Shown here in pieces: positions 4,960 to 19,267 of a stretch of DNA of 22,044 bases. The position numbers and the translations under genes are program-made. Source of the stretch: a virus; IMG/VR virus record IMGVR_UViG_3300031772_000322, positions 1 through 22,044 of that record. One strand, written 5' to 3'. Numbering within the stretch: position 1 is the first letter of the stretch; each line of letters opens with the position of its first letter. The notes beneath the pieces were generated by a model. That model worked only from the letters and a program-made list of their open reading frames with translations, did no database searches and had not been told where the DNA came from.

Positions 4960-5778
4960 ATCTTGGTCTTTATTGCCTTTAAGTAAAGCTGATTCGGTTA
5001 AAGGGGTCATTCCTGCGGCGGCAGCTACGTGTGCAGAACACCCTGCAAAGAAATTGGCCATGTCTTTCAAGAAGGCACGTTGGAAATTGGCAGTGAGTAC
5101 CGCCCCTTTTTGAATAGCGGCCTGTTCTTGAGCAAAAAATTGATTAATGAAGTTTTGAGCCATTTGGCCATTTACTCCAATTTGTGAGAAATAGATATGA
5201 TTTCCTTCATCAATAGAGCCGCCTCTAGATCTGGCGGCACAAATGCCCTGTTCAAAGGCCTTCATGATATGATAGGCTTCTTCTTCCTTTTCAAAGTCAA
5301 TTTCGGACATTTCATCATATCCGGCATTTTTAAGGATCTGTTTGTATTGCTCTGTATAGTTCGTAACGGCCCGTACGGCGCCTTCTACATAAAGCATCGT
5401 GGTTTGGAGCTTAGAGGTCTCGAAATCGATTTCTAGCTCTATTTCCTGCTGTTTAATGTCATCTGTTTCAGTGAGTAGGTCTCGCTCCAAGCGTTGAATA
5501 TGAAGTTGCTTCTTATTCATGTTATATTGGGCCTCTTTAAGGGCTTCTATAGACTTATTGACTTCTGCTAGGATTTGACGTGCATTCCTAAGAGGGGTAG
5601 GATGGCTTACTGTCATGAAATTGTCCATGAACTGGCTTTGGGTTTTACCAAAGTTGGAGGAGGCTTCTCTTATCATTGGAAGATTTTGCTGTATATTCTT
5701 GGCCATAAGAGCATATTCTTTAGCCCGTTTAGCAAGTTCCATCTTAGGATTTTCTATTTTAATTAAGTTAAATTTCAT
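4957..5778 (-). CDS. Helical virion-region protein, unknown function
   Basis: A 273-aa protein starting MKFNLIKIENPKMELAKRAK. Residues about 15-150 read as long charged helices, probably coiled coil (AEVNKSIEALKEAQYNMNKKQ, LERDLLTETDDIKQQEIE). The C-terminal third has FINQFFAQEQAAIQKGAV and an Ala-rich segment (CSAHVAAAAGM). There is no signal peptide or Cys-based site. The ATG shares one base with the stop of the upstream propeller gene (TAATG), and that gene's last codons supply GGAGGT as ribosome site. Position suggests an assembly or internal virion role, but no family is recognised. Confidence 0.75.
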   Translation of the reverse strand: MKFNLIKIENPKMELAKRAKEYALMAKNIQQNLPMIREASSNFGKTQSQFMDNFMTVSHPTPLRNARQILAEVNKSIEALKEAQYNMNKKQLHIQRLERDLLTETDDIKQQEIELEIDFETSKLQTTMLYVEGAVRAVTNYTEQYKQILKNAGYDEMSEIDFEKEEEAYHIMKAFEQGICAARSRGGSIDEGNHIYFSQIGVNGQMAQNFINQFFAQEQAAIQKGAVLTANFQRAFLKDMANFFAGCSAHVAAAAGMTPLTESALLKGNKDQD

Positions 5779-7004
5779 TAAATACCTCCATGACTATCAG
5801 ATAGGCCGCCAAAATATTGACGTGATATAGTAAGACTTCCAAAATTAGTAGCATTTGATGCAGAAGCAATAGTAATATAGTCGATAGTGCTACTTGCTGT
5901 TGCGCCTCCAGTAATTACCCCTCTGACTGAATTGGATGTACCCGCGCATTGATATCTTGATGTAGTAAGATTACCAAAGGTTGTACTATTTCCAGTAGAT
6001 GCAATTGTAACATATTGCATAACAGTTGTTCCAGAAGCTCCTCCACAGAAAACTCCTATTGTACTACTGCAACAAGCTTCTAGTGCATAGGATGCTGTAG
6101 TACTAAGTGTTCCAAAAGAAGTACTATTTGCCGCAGTAGCAATAGTAATATAATCCATGGTATTATTATAACCAAGTATCCCTCTAGTTGTACTATTAAC
6201 TCCTGCAGATTCAGAAAAAGTTGTTGTAAGAGATCCAAATGAAGTACTATTTCCAGTGGTTGCTATAGTAATATATTCCATAGAGGTAGTATCATTTACG
6301 CCTCCGCCCATTACTCCTCTAGTTCCATTCGACATCCCAGCTTGAGTACGAGTTGCGGCAAGCAAACTACCAAATGAACTACTATTACTTGTTGTTGCAA
6401 TAGTAATATAATCCATTGTGGTTACATAGGCACCGTTATATCCACCGCAGAAAACACCTCGTGTACTACTAGAAACCCCGGTACATCCGGCATCATCTGA
6501 AGATAAATTTCCAAATGTGGTGCCGTTTCCTGTTGTATTAATAGTAATATACTCCATTGATGAGACGCCAGGATAAGATGTTCCAAATACTGCTCTTCCT
6601 GCGACTGTTGCGGAAACCCATACTGGTAAACCAGAAGATACTGTTAATATACTACCTTCTGCTCCAATAGCTAATCTAGTTGGTGTTCCAGAAGAACCTC
6701 CATAGATCATATCTCCTAGTGTAGTCATTGGGTTAGTCATGCCTGCAGAAGAGGTGGCCGGGGCGTCTGTGAACCAATTAGTTCCATTGCTTTGAAGTTG
6801 TACTTCGCCCCAATTAGATGTAATGACTTTGCTGCTGGCTCCATCAATAAGCTCGGAAGCATTAGGGTTAATTGTTATATTATTAGTGGCGGCGCTTCCA
6901 GTACAGTCTTTTATAATAAGAATACGGCCATTAGTAGGCGCGGGGAGAGTGATTGTTCTTGCACCCCCACTTGAGTCTACTAATACTAGATTATCTTTAG
7001 CCAT
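5778..7004 (-). CDS. Tail fibre protein with six-repeat propeller domain (copy A)
   Basis: A 408-aa protein. Residues 1-75 form a beta-rich module (MAKDNLVLVDSSGGARTITL, NGRILIIKD, NNITINPNASELIDG, SNGTNWF) also present in the next two upstream propeller and fibre genes. A linker NPMTTLGDMIYGG follows. From about residue 133 there are six repeats of about 42-47 residues with the pattern RGVF-GG, then MDYITIATT-NSTSFGSL. The protein ends LSDSHGGI. Six repeats suit a six-bladed Kelch-like beta-propeller, probably a receptor-binding head. The last Gly-Gly codons (GGA GGT) are the Shine-Dalgarno for the downstream gene, whose ATG overlaps the stop. Repeat 4 is shortened, having lost the usual glycine loop. 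Confidence 0.8.
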   Translation of the reverse strand: MAKDNLVLVDSSGGARTITLPAPTNGRILIIKDCTGSAATNNITINPNASELIDGASSKVITSNWGEVQLQSNGTNWFTDAPATSSAGMTNPMTTLGDMIYGGSSGTPTRLAIGAEGSILTVSSGLPVWVSATVAGRAVFGTSYPGVSSMEYITINTTGNGTTFGNLSSDDAGCTGVSSSTRGVFCGGYNGAYVTTMDYITIATTSNSSSFGSLLAATRTQAGMSNGTRGVMGGGVNDTTSMEYITIATTGNSTSFGSLTTTFSESAGVNSTTRGILGYNNTMDYITIATAANSTSFGTLSTTASYALEACCSSTIGVFCGGASGTTVMQYVTIASTGNSTTFGNLTTSRYQCAGTSNSVRGVITGGATASSTIDYITIASASNATNFGSLTISRQYFGGLSDSHGGI

Positions 7005-7016
7005 ATTATACCAGAA

Positions 7017-7310
7017 TTATTGACGGGCATCCCAGAAGTCACTAGCAAGAGTTGTTTTTTCATCATTAGTCAATGCTGTATCATTTTGAGTACCGGGAAT
7101 CATAGGGGCCATTATTGTTAAAGTAATAATATATCCAATAAAAGCGTCTTTTGTCGTAAAAGTAATAAGTTCACTACTTGGAGGAACATAACAAGTTACA
7201 TCGTCTTTTGTAAGTCCTATCATTTTACCATTATTATAGAAATGTCCTCCATCTTCAATAAAGTAGGGAATAGTTCCACCATGTAATTTGTATTGTACTA
7301 TATGTTTCAT
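7017..7310 (-). CDS. 97-aa protein between propeller genes, possible fibre chaperone
   Basis: The start is placed at ATG 7310 (MKHIVQYKLHGG), not the further upstream ATG, because GGAGGT lies about 8 bases before it and the upstream fibre gene ends at 7312. The N-terminal half is mixed beta with aromatic residues. Residues about 60-75 (AFIGYIITLTIMAPMIPG) are hydrophobic. The end ALTNDEKTTLASDFWDARQ resembles the PLSNDKKAEFVTYRQTLR stretch of the chaperone-like protein at 12985-13200. That similarity, and its place between two fibre genes, hint at a fibre assembly role. This is weak inference and no family is firmly recognised. Confidence 0.65.
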   Translation of the reverse strand: MKHIVQYKLHGGTIPYFIEDGGHFYNNGKMIGLTKDDVTCYVPPSSELITFTTKDAFIGYIITLTIMAPMIPGTQNDTALTNDEKTTLASDFWDARQ

Positions 7311-7311
7311 A

Positions 7312-8556
7312 TTATAAACCTCCGTGGCTATTAGAACATGCCGCACTGCCATATTGAGTAACAGTTAGCGTCCCAAAAGAAGTGGCATTACTAGTTGTTG
7401 CAATATCAATATAATCAATTGTATCTAAATATGCGGCACCATCGTACCCGCCTGCAAATATACCTCTAACAGAATTAGAAGTTCCTGCTAGTCCAAAGGT
7501 TATAAAAGTTAAATTTCCAAAAGTAGTACTATTGCTGGTTGTGGCTATCGTAATATATTCCATAATGTCTTGAGCTGTCCCAGATACATCGCCTCCACCA
7601 AAGACACCTCTTGTTGCACTAGAACAGCCTGCCAAAATAAATCTAGCAGTCCCAAGTGTTCCAAATGTAGTCGCATTGGCAACGGTTGCAATGGTCACAT
7701 AGTCCATGGCATTATTACTTCCGCCAAATCCGCCAGCAAAAACTCCTCTTGTAGGGCTAGACACTCCGCCCGTTCCATATCTTCCCACCGTCAATGTCCC
7801 AAAAGTAGACGCATTAGCTATGGTAGCAAAATCGATGTAATCCATGTTCGTAGTTGATGCAGCTCCAGTAGAATAAATACCCCGCGTTACATTAGAAAGG
7901 CCCGTACAATATTCTGCGTTGACTACTAAATTTCCAAAAGTAGTAGCATTTCCAGTACTTGCTATGGTAATGTAGTCCATTTCTTTATTAGTTCCGCCGT
8001 CGCCTCCAGCGAAAACTCCTCTCGTATCACTAGAACAAGCTCCTAATAAATTTCTTGCAACAGTTAAGTCTCCAAAATCTACAGCATTGGATGTTGTAGA
8101 TATTGAAATGTAATCCATTGTATTAATTGGTCCTTGTCCTCCACCAATAACTGCTCTAGTTCCATCATACCATCGCGGAATGCCGCCGATAACTGTTAAA
8201 GTCGATCCTGTTGTTCCAATTCCTAATCTAGTTGGAGTTCCAGAAGAACCTCCATAGATTATATCGCCCAATGTAGTCATTGGGTTAGTCATACCGCTAC
8301 TGGGGGAAGCGGGGGCATTTGTAAACCAATTAGTTCCATTACACTGAAGTTGTACTTCTCCCCAGTTGGCCGTGATAACTTTAGTATTAGCCCCATCAAT
8401 CTTTTCACTAGCATTTTGACTTATAGTGATATTATTGGTAGCCGCATTTCCTGTAGAGTCCTTAATAGTAAGAAGTCTACCATTAGTGGGTGTAGGAAGC
8501 GTAACCGTTATCGGCCCTCCGCTACAATTTACTAATACTAAGTTATCTTTGGCCAT
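7312..8556 (-). CDS. Tail fibre protein with six-repeat propeller domain (copy B)
   Basis: A 414-aa paralogue of the 5778-7004 product. Residues 1-75 hold the shared beta module (MAKDNLVLVNCSGGPITVTL, IKDSTGNAATNNITI, NGTNWF), then NPMTTLGDIIYGGSSGTPTR. Six repeats run from about residue 132 to the end, each starting RGVFAGG or similar, then MDYITIAST-NATTFGNL and ending in a Cys-Ser or Ser-Asn turn. Terminal residues are CSNSHGGL. The GGA GGT codons of SHGG form a strong Shine-Dalgarno for the ATG at 7310. GAGGAT precedes its own start. Predicted role: a six-bladed propeller receptor-binding protein attached to the tail through the N-terminal module. Confidence 0.8.
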   Translation of the reverse strand: MAKDNLVLVNCSGGPITVTLPTPTNGRLLTIKDSTGNAATNNITISQNASEKIDGANTKVITANWGEVQLQCNGTNWFTNAPASPSSGMTNPMTTLGDIIYGGSSGTPTRLGIGTTGSTLTVIGGIPRWYDGTRAVIGGGQGPINTMDYISISTTSNAVDFGDLTVARNLLGACSSDTRGVFAGGDGGTNKEMDYITIASTGNATTFGNLVVNAEYCTGLSNVTRGIYSTGAASTTNMDYIDFATIANASTFGTLTVGRYGTGGVSSPTRGVFAGGFGGSNNAMDYVTIATVANATTFGTLGTARFILAGCSSATRGVFGGGDVSGTAQDIMEYITIATTSNSTTFGNLTFITFGLAGTSNSVRGIFAGGYDGAAYLDTIDYIDIATTSNATSFGTLTVTQYGSAACSNSHGGL

Positions 8557-8568
8557 ATTATATCCTCA

Positions 8569-9531
8569 TTAACTAATTGAATAGTTACTCGATACTGTAT
8601 TTGTGGTGATTTGTAATCCACCATTGATTTGATGCGTAGCTGTAGATCCTGAAAGACCAATAGTTGCAATGGCCGCAGTGGCTTGTGCAATTAAAGTATC
8701 TCCTGTCAAAGTTTTGGCACCTGCAAGAGTTTGAGTTCCAGTAGTTACAACCCCGCCAAAACTTGCGCTTGCTGGTTCAAGGTTTAATACTTGTCCAGAA
8801 AGGGTAGCAGCATTTGCATTTGGTGTTGAGCCAATTGCAGCTAAAGTGACATCTCCACTATTTGTACCAGTGAGGTCTAATAGTGTTTTTACTTGAGAAG
8901 TAGTAAGATCTAATGCATTTGCCGTACTACCAGTATTATTACCTTTAATTGTATTTGCCGCCATTTGCGCAGCTTTGGCATTTGTTACAGCATTTGCCGC
9001 AATAGTGGTTGCAAAAGACCCTGTGCCAGATCCTGTAACATCACTTGTAAGAGTGATTGTTTGATCTCCAGTATTTGTGCCAGAGAGATTTGAAGCAGAA
9101 ATAGCTCCAGTAAATGTCTTTGCGCCTGAGAAGGACTGCGTGGTATTATTTACAAGACCAGGAACTGTAACCGAAGCCGATTGGGCAACAAGACTACTTC
9201 CAGTGATGACAAGACCATTTGCAGAAGCGGTTTGGCTATCGATAGTTCCAATAGAACTAACTCCGCCAACAGTAGTTGCATCATCATGATCTAAAAACCA
9301 ATTTGTTCCATCACTTACTAAACTTGCAGATCCAAAAGCAAAGTTGATTACTTTACTAGAAGTTCCATCAATAAGTTCTGAAGCATTGGGATTAATAGTA
9401 ATGTTATTTGTATTTGCATTACCAGTTGAATCCTTAATTTTAAGAACTCGTCCATTTGTTGGTGCCGGAAGTGTGATTGTTCTTGCGCCTCCAGATGTGT
9501 TTACTAGTACTACATTATCATGTGCGGCCAT
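8569..9531 (-). CDS. Short tail fibre protein, shared N-terminal module
   Basis: A 320-aa protein. Residues 1-80 are the same module as in the propeller genes (NVVLVNTSGGARTITLPAP, NNITINPNASELIDG, DGTNWF). The middle is classic phage fibre shaft sequence: TQSFSGAKTFTGAISASNLS, NTGDQTITLTSDVTGSGTG and AKAAQMAANTIKGNNTGST. The end VSSNYSIS is similar to the end of the next gene (VATNYSVL). There are no propeller repeats. AAGGAGAG overlaps the stop of the preceding gene and serves this start. It is probably a trimeric fibre component; the shared ends suggest a modular exchange family. Confidence 0.78.
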   Translation of the reverse strand: MAAHDNVVLVNTSGGARTITLPAPTNGRVLKIKDSTGNANTNNITINPNASELIDGTSSKVINFAFGSASLVSDGTNWFLDHDDATTVGGVSSIGTIDSQTASANGLVITGSSLVAQSASVTVPGLVNNTTQSFSGAKTFTGAISASNLSGTNTGDQTITLTSDVTGSGTGSFATTIAANAVTNAKAAQMAANTIKGNNTGSTANALDLTTSQVKTLLDLTGTNSGDVTLAAIGSTPNANAATLSGQVLNLEPASASFGGVVTTGTQTLAGAKTLTGDTLIAQATAAIATIGLSGSTATHQINGGLQITTNTVSSNYSIS

Positions 9532-9542
9532 TTATCTCTCCT

Positions 9543-10682
9543 TTAAAGAACTGAATAATTTGTTGCTACTGTGGTTGTTTTAACTTGAATACTTGAATTT
9601 GTAATTATGGTACCTTCGAATGTCCAAGCTTGATTTGCATCAATATTGCCTGCAGTAAGTCCATTTGTTGCGAAGCCTAAGCTATTTGCTCCATTTCCAT
9701 ATATACCTTTATTTGTTGTGCTAAAGGCATAAGATGGTGCCGATGCAGATCCTTCGGGGGCAGCTAATGGAAAACTAGTACTACCCGCTACTGATGTAAT
9801 ATTACCACTGGCATCGAATTGAGCAAATCCCGCCCCATATCCTGGTAATTGAAGTAGACCTTCACTACTAAGATATAGTCTATCTGCTAAAGTACCTGCT
9901 AGATTCGTAAGTTGAATATGGAAATCTGATGTAACAGTGAGACTATTTACTGTATTTGCCTTAAAAGCAAAAGTACCTGAAATTGGCGCACTGCCTACTG
10001 TAGTTGCGGCAGCTTGTGCTGTCCATTTAGAATAATCTTGTCCAGCAACAACTGCATTATTAATACCAACTGTTCCAGATCTGGATGTTAGAGTTGATAC
10101 TCCTGAGACAGAAGTGCCTGCAAAATAAGAATGTAACTTTATCTGTCCCCTATTTGCAGTAGTAGCATCGGAATACTGAATCCCACTATTAGCTCCGCCA
10201 ATTGTAGCATCTGACCCAATAAATATTTGACCACTTGTATTATTCTGGACAATAATATTGCCTGTAGTATCAACTAAAGGTCGTATTTTAAGAGTTGTAT
10301 TTGCTGTTAAAAGTGGTTGTAAAGTTGTAGTTGTTGATGCTGTTAAAAGACTAAGATCAAATTTGAATTTCTTAGTTGCATCTGATGCACTAACAAAATC
10401 AAGTTGAGCGTCCGTGGCATCGCCACTAAGAGTAATATTTGGAGTTAAACCTCCACTACTATGTAAAGGTAAAGATGCTGTTACTGATGTTACTCCTCCA
10501 CCCCCTCCGCCTGTGGCAGCAACCCATGCACTTCCACTCCAGATATAAATAGTCTCTGTATCAAAGGTTACTCTTACATCACCTATTGTATTTCCTGTTG
10601 CTGGTAAATTGGCTAATGTGCTAACTCCATCTTTATAGCTAGCAGATCCGCCTTCCCCTAGTTTTATAAAAGTTGAACTCAT
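9543..10682 (-). CDS. Tail fibre protein with MSSTFIKL N-terminus
   Basis: A 379-aa protein. The first 8 residues MSSTFIKL are shared with the large double-propeller protein. Residues about 20-60 (VSTLANLPATGN, IGDVRV, IYIWSGSAWV) are a common fibre attachment module that recurs alone in the 48-aa ORF at 20573-20719. A Gly linker follows, then beta-rich shaft sequence (LPLHSSGGLTPNITLSGDAT, LKIRPLVDTTGNIIVQNNTS). The C-terminus (NSSIQVKTTTVATNYSVL) resembles that of the next gene. The ATG overlaps the stop of the gene upstream (TAATG). Interpreted as a virion fibre protein; the receptor is unknown. Confidence 0.75.
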   Translation of the reverse strand: MSSTFIKLGEGGSASYKDGVSTLANLPATGNTIGDVRVTFDTETIYIWSGSAWVAATGGGGGGVTSVTASLPLHSSGGLTPNITLSGDATDAQLDFVSASDATKKFKFDLSLLTASTTTTLQPLLTANTTLKIRPLVDTTGNIIVQNNTSGQIFIGSDATIGGANSGIQYSDATTANRGQIKLHSYFAGTSVSGVSTLTSRSGTVGINNAVVAGQDYSKWTAQAAATTVGSAPISGTFAFKANTVNSLTVTSDFHIQLTNLAGTLADRLYLSSEGLLQLPGYGAGFAQFDASGNITSVAGSTSFPLAAPEGSASAPSYAFSTTNKGIYGNGANSLGFATNGLTAGNIDANQAWTFEGTIITNSSIQVKTTTVATNYSVL

Positions 10683-11017
10683 TAGGCTAACAAATCGCCT
10701 TTCCCATTTATCTGAACATTAAGTGTTCCAGTACCCGAAGTAAAAGTATATACTACTCTTATTTTATCATAATATGCAGTAGTTACTTCCCATATAGCAT
10801 CGCCTGCTGCAGTAATTGCTATATCTGAACCCGGATAATCAATATAATTAGTTCCATCTACGGAAGCTTGTAATTTAATATCTCCTACTGGAGTTCCGGT
10901 CCATTTAGCATATATTGCATAGCCATCTATTCTAGATAAATCCATAGCTGTTGAAGTTAAAGTGGAGGTCATAACTCCATTAGTTAGGATTGGTGTATTA
11001 AATATATTTTCTGACAT
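10682..11017 (-). CDS. Small beta-sandwich virion protein
   Basis: A 111-aa protein with no Cys or membrane segment. The order of motifs (SRIDGYAIYAKWTGTPVGD, IKLQASVDGTNYIDYPGSD, IWEVTTAYYDKIRVVYT, GTLNVQINGKGDLLA) is a recurrent small beta-sandwich seen near tail or fibre genes in many phages. It is the first gene after a TAATAAGTA element only about 15 bases upstream, with AGGAGT as ribosome site. Its stop overlaps the next ATG. A small structural protein is likely; its exact place in the virion is not visible. Confidence 0.65.
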   Translation of the reverse strand: MSENIFNTPILTNGVMTSTLTSTAMDLSRIDGYAIYAKWTGTPVGDIKLQASVDGTNYIDYPGSDIAITAAGDAIWEVTTAYYDKIRVVYTFTSGTGTLNVQINGKGDLLA

Positions 11018-11032
11018 TTTTGACTCCTGTAA

Positions 11033-11041
11033 TACTTATTA
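11033..11041 (-). promoter_or_regulatory. TAATAAGTA element, copy 5 (upstream of 11017)
   Basis: The minus strand reads ATATAATAAGTATTACAGG. The core is identical to the other copies. It lies only 15 bases before the ATG at 11017, so it almost touches the AGGAG ribosome site and leaves no room for a leader hairpin, unlike the other five copies. The short distance is awkward for a plain -10 promoter and keeps RNA processing open as an explanation. Confidence 0.55.
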
Positions 11042-11060
11042 TATCTCTCTATTAATCCTA

Positions 11061-12977
11061 TTATAATCCGCCGTGGCTATCAGAACATGCTGCTAGTCCA
11101 AATCTACTTACAGTTAAGGCACCAAAGGTTGTTGCGGTACTTAATGTTGTAAAAGTAACATAGTCTATTGTATCTCTGGCAAGCCCCCCTGCGCGTCCTC
11201 CGCCAACAACCGCTATTGTGCTACTAGAACAGGCTGCTAAATAGTCTCTGGCAACAGTAAGGCCTCCAAATGCGGTTGCGGTACCTAATGTTCCAATTGT
11301 AATATAATCTGTCGTTGTTTGAGGAATTGTAGTAGATCCACCTGCAAAAACGCCAATTGTCGCATTAGAACATCCACTAAGAACAGTTCTAGCTTGACTT
11401 AATACTCCAAATGAACTACTATTTGCTGCGGATGTAATATCAATATAATCTATTGTATCAAGTCTAGAGTATCCACTGCCGCTACCAATTGTTCCGCCAG
11501 TTCCTCCAGCAAAAATACCTCGTGTAGGGCTTGCGCATGATGCCAATCCCGCTTTTTCTTGAGTTAAATCTCCAAAATATGTAGCCGAGCCTAATGTTGC
11601 AATAGTAATATAGTCCATCGCTTGGGTAAAATTAGAAGATAGACTTCCAAAAAGACTTCCCCCCGCAAAAACACCTCGTGTACTATTTGAGCACGATCCG
11701 AGGCCTGCTCTACTTGCAATTAGACTTCCAAAAGTTGTTGTGTTAGTTAAAAGAGACATTGTAATATAATCTATTGTTGCTATTGTTAAACCTGAAAAGG
11801 GATCAAGTCCTCCAGCAAATATTCCTCTAGTACTACTAGAACAGGACCCAAGTAATATGCTTGGAGTAGATAAAGTTCCATAATTAGTTGCATTAGCTAC
11901 AGTTGCAAAAGTAATATAATCAATTATATTACAAAGAAATAAGTCGTCTTGTCCTCCAGAAAATATACCAACTCCTGAAAGAGGCGCGGGGCCCACTCCG
12001 CCTCCAGAACCTCCATGGCTACCTGAAAGGGCTGCTAAACGAGATCGGGCTGCAGTAAGATTTCCAAAATTAGTTGCCGCCGCCGCCGTGGCAATAGTAA
12101 TATTACTTATTACAGATGTAGCTAAAGGTGCGCCTGTATTACCTCCACCAAAGATCCCTTTAACTGAATTAGAAGTACCGGCAAGTAGTGTTGTTGTTGC
12201 TGTTAAAGCGCCAAAGGTTGTTGCGGTGCCAGTAGTTGCAATAGTAATAAAATCCATTGTTGTTACACGTCCAGTTAAAGCTCCGGCGGTATTTCCACCT
12301 GCAAATACACCTCTGGTGCTACTAGAACAAGCTGCTAAATTCTGTCTTGCTACAGTAAGGCCTCCAAAAAAAGTAGCACTATTTCTAGTAGCAAATGTAA
12401 TATATTCTATAATACTTGTACCAGATCCCCCCCCTGACGTATTACCTCCACCAAAAATACCTCTAGTTGTACTAGAGCATCCCGCAAGTTGATATGCCAA
12501 ATATGAACCAAATAAAGTGCCAAAATTACTAGCATTTGCAATAGTTGCAATAGTAACATAATCTATTGTGCCTAATAATGTAATAGATGGAACTGAATTT
12601 CCTCCAGCAAATACACCAATAACAGCATTAGATGCTCCGGCCAATTGATCTCTTGCTAGAGTTAAATTACCAAAAGTAGTGCTTGCACTGGCCGTGGCAA
12701 TAGTAATATAATTCATTACATTTCTTGGCGTACCAGTAACATTACCTCCACCAAAAATACCTCTAGTTGTACTAGAGACTGCTGCTAAAAAATCTACAGA
12801 TAATGGAAGGCTTCCAAAGGTTGTTGCCGCTCCTCCAGATCCTCCAATATCAATATAATCCATTACGGTGCCGCCGCCGCCAAATACTGCTCTTCCTGCT
12901 CCAGATGGAGGTGGAGTTGGACCTCCTCCTATTGGGATCATCCAGAGGCCATTTAATTTTATAAATGTCGATGACAT
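11061..12977 (-). CDS. Double six-repeat propeller fibre protein (fusion)
   Basis: A 638-aa protein. It begins MSSTFIKLNGLWMIPIGGG with a Pro linker (GGPTPPPSG). Residues about 28-318 carry six repeats with RGIFGGGN...MNYITIATA...TTFGNLTLAR...SNA, ending LSGSHGG. A linker SGGGVGPAPLSG leads to a second set of six repeats (about 332-638) ending CSDSHGGL. The single-propeller paralogues end with the same SHGG followed by a stop, so the internal SHGG looks like the end of an ancestral gene fused to the next. Predicted: two six-bladed propellers in tandem, acting as a receptor-binding or baseplate-peripheral protein. AAGGAT precedes the ATG and overlaps the stop of the chaperone-like gene. It lacks the NNITINPNASELIDG module of its paralogues. 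Confidence 0.8.
   Translation of the reverse strand: MSSTFIKLNGLWMIPIGGGPTPPPSGAGRAVFGGGGTVMDYIDIGGSGGAATTFGSLPLSVDFLAAVSSTTRGIFGGGNVTGTPRNVMNYITIATASASTTFGNLTLARDQLAGASNAVIGVFAGGNSVPSITLLGTIDYVTIATIANASNFGTLFGSYLAYQLAGCSSTTRGIFGGGNTSGGGSGTSIIEYITFATRNSATFFGGLTVARQNLAACSSSTRGVFAGGNTAGALTGRVTTMDFITIATTGTATTFGALTATTTLLAGTSNSVKGIFGGGNTGAPLATSVISNITIATAAAATNFGNLTAARSRLAALSGSHGGSGGGVGPAPLSGVGIFSGGQDDLFLCNIIDYITFATVANATNYGTLSTPSILLGSCSSSTRGIFAGGLDPFSGLTIATIDYITMSLLTNTTTFGSLIASRAGLGSCSNSTRGVFAGGSLFGSLSSNFTQAMDYITIATLGSATYFGDLTQEKAGLASCASPTRGIFAGGTGGTIGSGSGYSRLDTIDYIDITSAANSSSFGVLSQARTVLSGCSNATIGVFAGGSTTIPQTTTDYITIGTLGTATAFGGLTVARDYLAACSSSTIAVVGGGRAGGLARDTIDYVTFTTLSTATTFGALTVSRFGLAACSDSHGGL
12009..12020 (-). 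other. Internal SHGG codons marking the propeller fusion junction
   Basis: The codons AGC CAT GGA GGT for SHGG occur in the middle of the 638-aa gene. In the single-propeller genes the same four codons sit at the 3' end and supply the next gene's GGAGGT ribosome site. Here translation reads on into a Gly-Ser linker. Read as the fossil of a gene junction. Confidence 0.55.
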
Positions 12978-17180: not shown

Positions 17181-18308
17181 TTACGAATTAACGATATTAG
17201 TGATCTTAACAAGTCTAGCAGGACTATCGCTAAACAAAGTTTGATCGGTGTAAGCCCTCAGTTCGTATCCAGCAGAAGAGGTCAATTCCAAGAAGAAATC
17301 TTCTTGTTGTTGACGACCAGGCATCTTGAAGCTGATATTCATCGCGCCAATTCTCTTAAGTCGCTTGGGCGGGAATACAAATGCTTCGCCTTCTTTGACA
17401 TAGATGGAAGAAACGATATCGATTTTTCCATTTTGTCCGTGGAAGGAATATTCAGAAGCACCAGTTTCGAGTTTGCTTGTCTTGTAGCTGTCATCATACA
17501 TACGAAGAGCAGCTTGATCTGAACTGATGTTCGCCCAGGTCTTGGGAGAAATCATACAAACCACGTCTTGGTCAAGACCACGTTCTACGGCCAAAGCAAC
17601 TGCAGCTAGAATCTTTTGGAAACTAAGAGCGGCCGATTGTGCACTAGAAGTGTTACCTTTCCACAGGTTATAAGTCGAAGCGCTGATATTGTATAGAGTA
17701 CCAGTATTAGTGATAATTCTATCCAAACCGAACACATCATTTAAGAGTGATCCAAGTGGAATAAGGAATGCGCCAGTTGAAATGGCGGCATCAATGGCTG
17801 TAAGGTCAGTAGAGTTACCCGAAACGCTTACGGTTCGAGCAGTGAGGTCTACAGAAGTAACAACCAATTGGGCGTTAGTGTTAAGCTTATCGCCAGTTGA
17901 CGTAGGAACGGCAACAGACGTACTATCAAGAGGCATATTTTCAGATCCAGCCCAGATACCAGAAGCCCATGAGGCCGTGGTAAGAGTGAAGGTTCTGCTA
18001 GCGCCAGATCCTGAAGAAGAAGCAAGTTGACCAATGTTCGTTGATCCATAGAACATCGAAATTTCAAGTCGTTTCGCAATGCTGTTCACCATGTTTTGAA
18101 CCATAAGTGAAGTAGCTTTGACGAAAGCTTTCTTGTCATTCGAGGCACGGGCGGCAGCTTCATAACTCATTTGAGAACGAATCAACATTTGCGCACCAGC
18201 AAGTTGAGCGTCTTTGAAGACAGCAGCAACTGCATTTTGCAAGTTGAAAGCTCCCGAGTCAGCAGCGGCATACGTGATGCCGTGTTCGTGGGATAGTTGG
18301 ACTGGTTG
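17181..18308 (-). CDS. Major capsid protein, exon 2
   Basis: The 3' exon encodes 375 residues, starting QPVQLSHEHGITYAAADSGA. Joined to exon 1 it gives a 425-aa protein with the junction IGNLYH|QPVQLSHEHG. The frame has no proper start of its own: the only candidate is a TTG that is the last intron triplet. Sequence features typical of an HK97-type capsid protein include the Ala-rich helical region AAVFKDAQLAGAQMLIRSQM, KATSLMVQNMVNSIAKRLE, and the late domain WANISSDQAALRMYDDSY and SSAGYELRAYTDQTLFSD. Placement after a scaffold gene, its own strong terminator and codon use unlike the AT-rich fibres support a highly expressed capsid gene. The MCP call rests on context and composition, not a database match. 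Confidence 0.85.
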   Translation of the reverse strand, partial: QPVQLSHEHGITYAAADSGAFNLQNAVAAVFKDAQLAGAQMLIRSQMSYEAAARASNDKKAFVKATSLMVQNMVNSIAKRLEISMFYGSTNIGQLASSSGSGASRTFTLTTASWASGIWAGSENMPLDSTSVAVPTSTGDKLNTNAQLVVTSVDLTARTVSVSGNSTDLTAIDAAISTGAFLIPLGSLLNDVFGLDRIITNTGTLYNISASTYNLWKGNTSSAQSAALSFQKILAAVALAVERGLDQDVVCMISPKTWANISSDQAALRMYDDSYKTSKLETGASEYSFHGQNGKIDIVSSIYVKEGEAFVFPPKRLKRIGAMNISFKMPGRQQQEDFFLELTSSAGYELRAYTDQTLFSDSPARLVKITNIVNS

Positions 18309-18318
18309 CAATTTGTTA

Positions 18319-18336
18319 CTTAGATTTTAATCTAAG
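18319..18336 (-). other. Intron 3'-end stem (P9.2-like)
   Basis: On the minus strand CTTAGAT, TAAA loop and ATCTAAG form a perfect 7-bp hairpin, ten bases before the 3' splice site. Part of the folded intron after the endonuclease ORF. Confidence 0.6.
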
Positions 18337-18357
18337 AGCTAATCATTTCTGTTAGCT
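18337..18357 (-). other. Intron stem directly after the endonuclease stop (P9.1-like)
   Basis: On the minus strand AGCTAA and TTAGCT form a 6-bp hairpin immediately after the endonuclease stop codon. It shows the ORF is inserted into a peripheral loop without breaking the intron fold. Confidence 0.55.
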
Positions 18358-18358
18358 T

Positions 18359-18925
18359 CTACTGTTTCATATGAAAAATAAAATGTAATCCGCCGGTAGT
18401 TTTTCTTTTTCCGGTACAAACTTCACTTATTCGAGGATAATGTAAATTTAATTCTTTAGCGGCCTGTCTGGCACTTTTATATATAATTCCTGTTTCTACA
18501 CACATAACAGGCTTAGATTTAACTTGAGCTATTACATGCTTCCAATGTTCACCATTAGTTTGTCCTAAACGTGCAACTCTATTTTTAGCGGCATGTTCAG
18601 AACTAACAGGTTTACCTTTACGTTCTAAAGACCATTTTTTCTTTTGTTCTTCAGAGTGAGAATTTGAATAACCATTTATTGATTTAGGAGATTTATTCCA
18701 GCCTTTATTCAATAAATCATATTGTTGAATCATCATCTCTTCTAAAATCACAGCCTCTTGTAAAGAAAGATAGTCTTGAACAAGTTCAATAGAATATTCT
18801 TTTCTATTTAACTTTCTTCTTCGAACATGACAATCAAAACGTATTTTTAACGTATTTTTTGTTAGTCCAGCGTAGACTATATTTTTTTGTTTATCTCGAA
18901 TTAGATATACTTTATAATTTTTCAT
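18359..18925 (-). CDS. GIY-YIG homing endonuclease encoded in the intron
   Basis: A 188-aa protein. Residues 5-80 are the GIY-YIG nuclease domain: KVYLIRD and IVYAGLT are the GIY and YIG strands, with conserved Arg29 and His33 in IRFDCH. The EEMMIQQY helix supplies the catalytic Glu, followed by the GWN turn. Residues about 88-125 (SHSEEQKKKWSLERKGKP, SSEHAAKNRVARLGQ) form NUMOD3-type DNA-binding segments. Residues about 138-185 (TGIIYKSARQAAKELN, RISEVCTGKRKTTGG) form a NUMOD1-type helix-turn-helix. It lies wholly inside the group I intron and has GAGGT 7 bases before the ATG and a near-consensus promoter about 130 bases upstream. It would cut intron-less capsid alleles near the insertion site to drive intron homing. 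All domains look intact. Confidence 0.93.
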   Translation of the reverse strand: MKNYKVYLIRDKQKNIVYAGLTKNTLKIRFDCHVRRRKLNRKEYSIELVQDYLSLQEAVILEEMMIQQYDLLNKGWNKSPKSINGYSNSHSEEQKKKWSLERKGKPVSSEHAAKNRVARLGQTNGEHWKHVIAQVKSKPVMCVETGIIYKSARQAAKELNLHYPRISEVCTGKRKTTGGLHFIFHMKQ

Positions 18926-19057
18926 GCATCGTACCTCGTAAGGTTGCTGCTATTTTATATCAGTAGCTCGGACTATCGCATCCCCTCTTTCGGGGTTCTT
19001 TCGTTTAGTCTCTCACGGTGGCTATTTGCCTTCCGCCTTATTTCCCTTTCAGTGTCC

Positions 19058-19086
19058 ATTATATCATAAAAGGGGGTCTAAGTCAA
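19058..19086 (-). promoter_or_regulatory. Near-consensus extended -10 sigma70 promoter inside the intron
   Basis: On the minus strand TTGACT (19086-19081), a 17-base spacer and TATAAT (19063-19058), with TG one base before the -10, match a host sigma70 promoter at 11 of 12 hexamer positions. It lies downstream of P1 and the 5' strand of P3, so its transcript could not splice and would serve only the endonuclease. No other site in the window was noticed that matches this well. Confidence 0.75.
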
Positions 19087-19117
19087 TTAGAAAGAATTTT
19101 ATTACCACCAGCCTTTA

Positions 19118-19267
19118 ATGGTAAAGATTACCGATTTCTTTAGCGGCTTCGATAAACGGAACCAGCTTAAGTAATTTGACACCATCTGGAATCAAATTTT
19201 CGATTTTGTCAGCATAAACTTCCTTAAAAAGGCCGTTCAGTGTGCTAACTGTATTTGGAGTTGACAT
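19118..19267 (-). CDS. Major capsid protein, exon 1
   Basis: A 50-codon exon (MSTPNTVSTLNGLFKEVYAD, KIENLIPDGVKLLKLVPF, ending EIGNLYH) that is followed at once by an in-frame TAA in the intron. The ATG at 19267 has AAGGA about 12 bases upstream. The amphipathic N-terminus, IENLIPDGVKLLK and the NLYH end flow in frame and in style into QPVQLSHEHG of exon 2. It is too short to look like a gene on its own and would be missed by length-filtered calling. A long leader of about 170 bases precedes it, starting at a TAATAAGTA element and hairpin. Confidence 0.9.

Follow-up and report, generated by a model that had tools for sequence, protein, structure and literature searches.

Introns that interrupt capsid genes have been described from several groups of phages. 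In the mycobacteriophage LittleE, an intron lies in the major capsid gene, and its splicing was proven by RT-PCR and N-terminal protein sequencing (PMC3706429). The same source cites a capsid gene intron reported earlier from the lactococcal phage Tuc2009 (PMC3706429). Among crAss-like phages, MCP introns are found in the Delta and Zeta groups, and one Zeta MCP is spread over five fragments (PMC7886860). Genes with multiple introns occur in Bastillevirinae, with splicing shown by experiment, and orf142 of phage Twort is a further multi-intron gene; this 2025 survey asked why only replication and nucleotide genes host phage introns (PMC11878797). The consequences of an intron endonuclease for other phages have been tested experimentally with gp210 of PhiPA3, which harms a co-infecting phage (PMC11620839).

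Here, we analyse a 22,044-base metagenomic virus fragment, referred to in its entirety as the window. We consider it about 95% probable that its HK97-fold major capsid gene, from an uncultured tailed phage, carries a mobile group I intron that splices two exons into a 425-aa frame and encodes an endonuclease most likely homing into intron-less capsid genes. The locus is organized as follows:

19118..19267 (-), capsid gene exon 1, 50 codons from ATG, in frame with exon 2
18309..19117 (-), group I intron, 809 nt, as judged from the best splice junction, a covarying fold and a covariance-model match
18359..18925 (-), GIY-YIG / NUMOD homing endonuclease gene, 188 aa, inside the intron
18309..18311 (-), UUG, the 3´-terminal intron triplet and a false start codon of exon 2
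17181..18308 (-), capsid gene exon 2, 375 codons and stop

One of the closest parallels is LittleE, which shares a group I-type intron with U before it and G at its end, the location in a major capsid gene and the presence of an endonuclease ORF. The ORF of LittleE is LAGLIDADG-like and on the opposite strand, whereas that of the window is of the GIY-YIG type and on the same strand, and splicing is proven in LittleE and predicted from sequence in the window (PMC3706429). The crAss-like phages belong to another phage group and resemble the gene family of the window in having multiple group I introns per capsid gene (PMC7886860). Bastillevirinae and Twort orf142 have in common with this family several group I introns per gene, a small exon between two of them and the issue of exon skipping, but their introns are mostly in DNA polymerase, terminase and nucleotide genes, unlike the capsid gene of the window (PMC11878797). 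Finally, gp210 can serve as a model for the window endonuclease, as it cuts an essential gene of an intron-less co-infecting phage; it is an HNH enzyme whose intron sits in a jumbo phage RNA polymerase gene, whereas the window has a GIY-YIG enzyme in a capsid gene, with a similar role proposed (PMC11620839). Because capsid introns from Tuc2009, LittleE (PMC3706429) and crAss-like phages (PMC7886860) are already on record, the window intron is of a known kind, and the novelty implied in a preliminary description of the locus was overstated.

Splice junction and capsid protein

Joining of the two exons gives an uninterrupted 425-aa protein in which the frame is kept at NLYH|QPVQ, and a TAA stop meets the exon 1 frame right at the start of the 809-nt insert. 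Among all 30 in-frame splice combinations in which U precedes the intron and G ends it, the NLYH|QPVQ junction ranked first with 695.5 bits against the capsid profile (runner-up, 682.4). The intron borders read CAU|UAAAGG ... AAUUG|CAACC, such that U is the last exon base and G the last intron base, and the junction of the joined exons is AATCTTTACCAT|CAACCAGTC. The nearest intron-less relative is provided by the IMG/VR contig L004, in which a protein 85% identical over 425 aa is encoded in one frame. The empty site in L004 DNA, AATCTCTATCAC|CAACCAGTACAATTG, is located exactly at the predicted junction. The preliminary description had placed the in-frame join and the terminal U and G at these positions, and the comparison with intron-less capsid proteins that it proposed bears this out. 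Its prediction of a false TTG start was also correct, in that the mechanical ORF list begins exon 2 at 18311-18309, the final three bases of the intron. The problem is widespread among relatives, where 34 of 45 introns have ATG, GTG or TTG as their 3´ end, so that gene callers can begin the downstream exon within the intron.

The PHROG major head protein family phrog_14242 is matched by exon 2 alone with 38.0 bits and by the joined exons with 52.1 bits, in an alignment starting at profile position 2. A Pfam search of the capsid protein returned no match, and the L004 protein scored 48 bits against NCBIfam capsid_maj_Podo (cut-off 80). An AlphaFold model of the intron-less L004 protein (pLDDT 83, pTM 0.84) resembles the capsid of cyanophage A-1(L) (Z 20.5) and that of HK97 (Z 16.5); it thus has the HK97 fold, for which the similar scores of encapsulins are to be expected. 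The increase in score upon joining and the modelled fold support the view, in line with the initial naming of the gene, that it encodes an HK97-fold major capsid protein. Deposited phages contain one capsid relative, 25% identical, in an unannotated Silvanigrella phage. This phage and a Bdellovibrionales MAG, both with distant capsid relatives, offer hints only, and any host named for the window phage is a guess.

Ribozyme fold and endonuclease gene

The following elements, with helices named in the order customary for group I introns, are found in the intron and next to its 5´ splice site:

19118..19124 (-), P1 exon strand UUACCAU, immediately before the 5´ splice site (exon-guide covariation)
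19102..19108 (-), P1 internal guide sequence GUGGUAA (exon-guide covariation)
19090..19096 (-), P3 5´ strand UUCUUUC (alignment covariation, covariance model)
19006..19012 (-), P7 5´ strand G-A-GACUA with bulged A, the guanosine-binding site (covariation)
18996..19002 (-), P3 3´ strand GAAAGAA (alignment covariation, covariance model)
18992..18995 (-), P8 5´ strand CCCC (covariation)
18982..18985 (-), P8 3´ strand GGGG (covariation)
18970..18975 (-), P7 3´ strand UAGUCC (covariation)

Pairing of UUACCAU with GUGGUAA gives a P1 of 7 bp with U.G at the cut. The window intron, with its endonuclease ORF removed, was aligned to 13 related introns of other phages (n = 14), of which eight are without endonuclease and just 199-256 nt long. 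The RNAalifold consensus comprises P1, P3, P4, P5, P6, P8 and two P9-type stems; in 36 of its 44 pairs, both partners vary across the 14 introns. Adding P7 as a pseudoknot brings the consensus to 48 pairs, and in the 14 introns 98.6% of cells are then paired, with compensatory change in 36 of the 48. The corresponding values are 77.7% and 20.4 pairs in shuffled controls, and 34-47% and 7-13 pairs when the partner is slid by 1-3 columns; the observed pairings are far above both types of control and thus not mere chance. All nine helices are 94-100% paired and have compensatory changes, the P3/P7 pseudoknot core is present, and the window intron keeps every core pair. In P7, A-U is replaced by G-C at one end and G-C by A-U at the other, with the bulged base between them. 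The exon and guide strands of P1 covary among introns, such that each guide matches its own site.

When the window was left out of its construction, a covariance model still matches 18961-19099 (-) with 104.1 bits (E about 1e-23). Rfam RF00028 gives 11.5 bits on the intron core, below its gathering cut-off of 50, and at the gathering score it found no match in eight related loci either. Other weak Rfam names at the intron were discarded as chance matches. The P1 pairing and the P3, P7, P8 and P9-type stems read in the preliminary description were all recovered and covary; of the covariance-model check suggested there, the family-specific model succeeded and the Rfam model did not. With splice junction, covarying fold and covariance model in agreement, the 809-nt insert is by these measures a group I intron, as first proposed. 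Since such introns evade the Rfam cut-off and supply false NTG starts from their ends, database entries for the capsid proteins of such phages are likely truncated. The model without the window also detects the same ribozyme class in MW202674.1 (Podoviridae sp. ctn9Y15; L241 2640-4155) with 106.9 bits. Here, the annotation divides a P22-type coat gene into two coat CDS on either side of a hypothetical protein, which looks wrong; the intervening gap appears to hold a group I intron. The capsid belongs to a family other than that of the window (PF11651), the record does not call the gap an intron, and no endonuclease ORF was seen in it.

The ORF within the window intron has an I-HmuI_NUMOD-like end (35.3 bits, cut-off 27) and a GIY-YIG domain just short of the Pfam cut-off (22.0 bits, cut-off 22.6), and it matches the PHROG homing endonuclease family phrog_314 (1.1e-16). 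One further element precedes it:

18933..18944 (-), leader hairpin ACCUUACGAGGU, covering the probable ribosome-binding site of the endonuclease ORF

Five of the six related introns tested, including that of the window, have a comparable predicted hairpin. Hairpins repress endonuclease translation in T4 introns, and by analogy the leader hairpin may do so here.

For the window intron, we infer splicing, cleavage and homing along the following lines. The transcribed RNA would fold such that the guide pairs with exon 1 and the P3/P7 core holds the guanosine site. Cleavage after UUACCAU and subsequent ligation of exon 1 to exon 2 would restore the 425-aa capsid frame. The GIY-YIG/NUMOD endonuclease would most likely cut, near codon 50, the capsid gene of any co-infecting phage that lacks the intron, and repair of the cut gene would copy the intron in.

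Insertion sites and phage kinship

IMG/VR was scanned with exon 2, an exon 2 profile, the endonuclease and a C-terminal stretch of 160 residues of the capsid protein, supplemented by one genome scan. Of the 107 distinct capsid genes obtained, 81 are contiguous and 25 are interrupted; some were found via the endonuclease, so that the share of interrupted genes (25 of 107) cannot be read as an unbiased frequency. The remaining gene, in a Bdellovibrionales MAG contig (L166 4854-6092), has two in-frame stops and represents a prophage remnant or a sequencing error.

Introns at CDS nt 150, the site used in the window, are also present in phages with an exon-2 capsid just 42-45% identical to that of the window, and the endonucleases of these distant introns are 52-69% identical to the window enzyme. 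L005 (also L170; 87%), the sister of the window phage in the capsid tree, does not have the nt 150 intron; its related endonuclease, 62% identical, is in an intron at nt 145. The endonuclease tree separates site 145 from site 150 in all cases but one (support 92/94), the exception being L175, the lone site-150 member on the site-145 side, and requires just two changes of insertion site. Grouping of the window endonuclease with that of the sister phage is rejected (p-AU 0.0004). Endonuclease kinship tracks insertion site and not phage kinship, as expected from homing, which supports an element that follows its target site rather than the phage. The intron had earlier been called mobile with no mention of the endonuclease ORF at 18925-18359 (-); the term itself is consistent with the GIY-YIG/NUMOD gene and the site-following kinship. 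Introns without endonuclease ORF are found at the site of the window in L205 (97-352, 256 nt) and L237 (2227-2478, 252 nt), and single introns in L025 (2118-3527) and L196 (4946-6404) apparently contain two endonuclease ORFs each, one GIY-YIG and one of another family.

Rather than being a selfish element, the intron could serve chiefly as a switch that controls when capsid protein is made, and such roles have been proposed for introns in phage replication genes (PMC11878797). We regard this as highly improbable, because 81 of the 107 relatives manage without an intron, close relatives differ in site and ribozyme class, which is unexpected for a switch that is kept, and the intron carries an endonuclease gene. 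Slightly less probable again is a decayed group I intron, with splicing or endonuclease function lost and the capsid gene broken in the window genome. All knowledge of the intron comes from its sequence, and at least one relative (L024 2995-3556) has a frame break close to the start of its homologous GIY-YIG endonuclease ORF. However, in the window all core pairs are retained, both exons and the endonuclease ORF are open, and a phage without capsid protein would not be propagated. A capsid gene starting at the TTG of exon 2, with the 50-codon ORF and the endonuclease ORF as separate genes and no splicing, would agree with the mechanical ORF and with the head-protein match of exon 2 on its own, but is less probable still in view of the covarying ribozyme fold, the origin of this TTG in the end of the intron and the presence of exon 1 in the same frame in all 81 uninterrupted relatives, none of which is the exon-2-start capsid named in the preliminary description as the refuting case.

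Introns across the capsid gene family

The mobile intron of the window belongs to a larger set. Splice-aware alignment of the 25 interrupted genes places 45 inferred introns at about 15 positions (CDS nt 42, 52, 81, 138, 145, 150, 156, 158, 164, 168, 180, 181, 182, 211 and 237), every one of them within nt 42-237 of about 1275. There is one intron in 12 of the genes, two in six and three in seven, and the shortest internal exons are 13, 14, 16, 18, 20, 23, 29 and 30 nt. No introns were found past codon 80, with a C-terminal query that could reveal them up to about codon 257. Codons 14-79 correspond to the N-terminal part of the L004 model, ahead of the strand pair 81-98. Two or three stacked group I introns are seen in the capsid genes of L228 (4333-6440), L110 (3784-5890) and L170 (4454-6365), and likewise in L168, L210, L237 and L238; internal exons in these seven genes are 13-61 nt. 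P1 was measured by the solver as a plain run of pairs, which is just 4 at some sites (e.g. nt 158 and 211) and absent in L185, and boundaries with a weak P1 are less sure since they depend on the U/G rule and an unbroken protein alignment. In L224, the intron called first was discarded as an artefact caused by contig truncation.

Single-linkage clustering lumps all 45 whole introns into one cluster, and ribozyme classes were therefore set by eye, with the class of the window at nt 52 and 145-168, another at 180-237 and another at 42. Over 96 loci (1.16 Mb), the model of the window class matches solely in capsid genes in these contigs, and ten longer records (37-85 kb) have at most one match each. 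Compared with random positions, intron sites fall in better conserved parts of the gene (p 0.0009). However, introns are absent from codons 241-270, where conservation is no lower, so that conservation alone cannot account for the unusual crowding. The odds of uniform placement are about 2e-8 if sites are independent, an assumption violated by neighbouring introns of the same class.

One possibility, which we advance tentatively and hold at somewhat less than even, is that the first fifth of the capsid gene is a battleground shared by a clade of phages, where several lineages of introns and endonucleases have come to occupy, by convergence, about 15 sites in a 200-nt segment, with up to three introns stacked and exons of 13-30 nt, possibly because cutting the capsid gene of a rival pays in co-infection. 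We found no description of multi-class introns crowded into one short capsid segment in a literature search that covered few subscription papers; searches for capsid intron hotspots, P22 coat introns and Bdellovibrio phage introns gave nothing closer, and an earlier report is possible. Few phage genes are expressed as strongly as that of the capsid, so its splicing has to be near complete. For ribozyme efficiency and exon skipping, a gene of this kind with three introns and 13-nt exons would represent a demanding test set by nature. The family is a counter-example to the notion that phage introns are confined to replication and nucleotide genes (PMC11878797) and offers dense comparative material.

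Elsewhere in the window (5778-12977), tandem repeats of about 46-50 residues recur in several adjoining ORFs; the repeats contain FAGG and MDYITIAT-like motifs and are present in about 20 copies at the DNA level. These ORFs probably encode repeat-built tail proteins.
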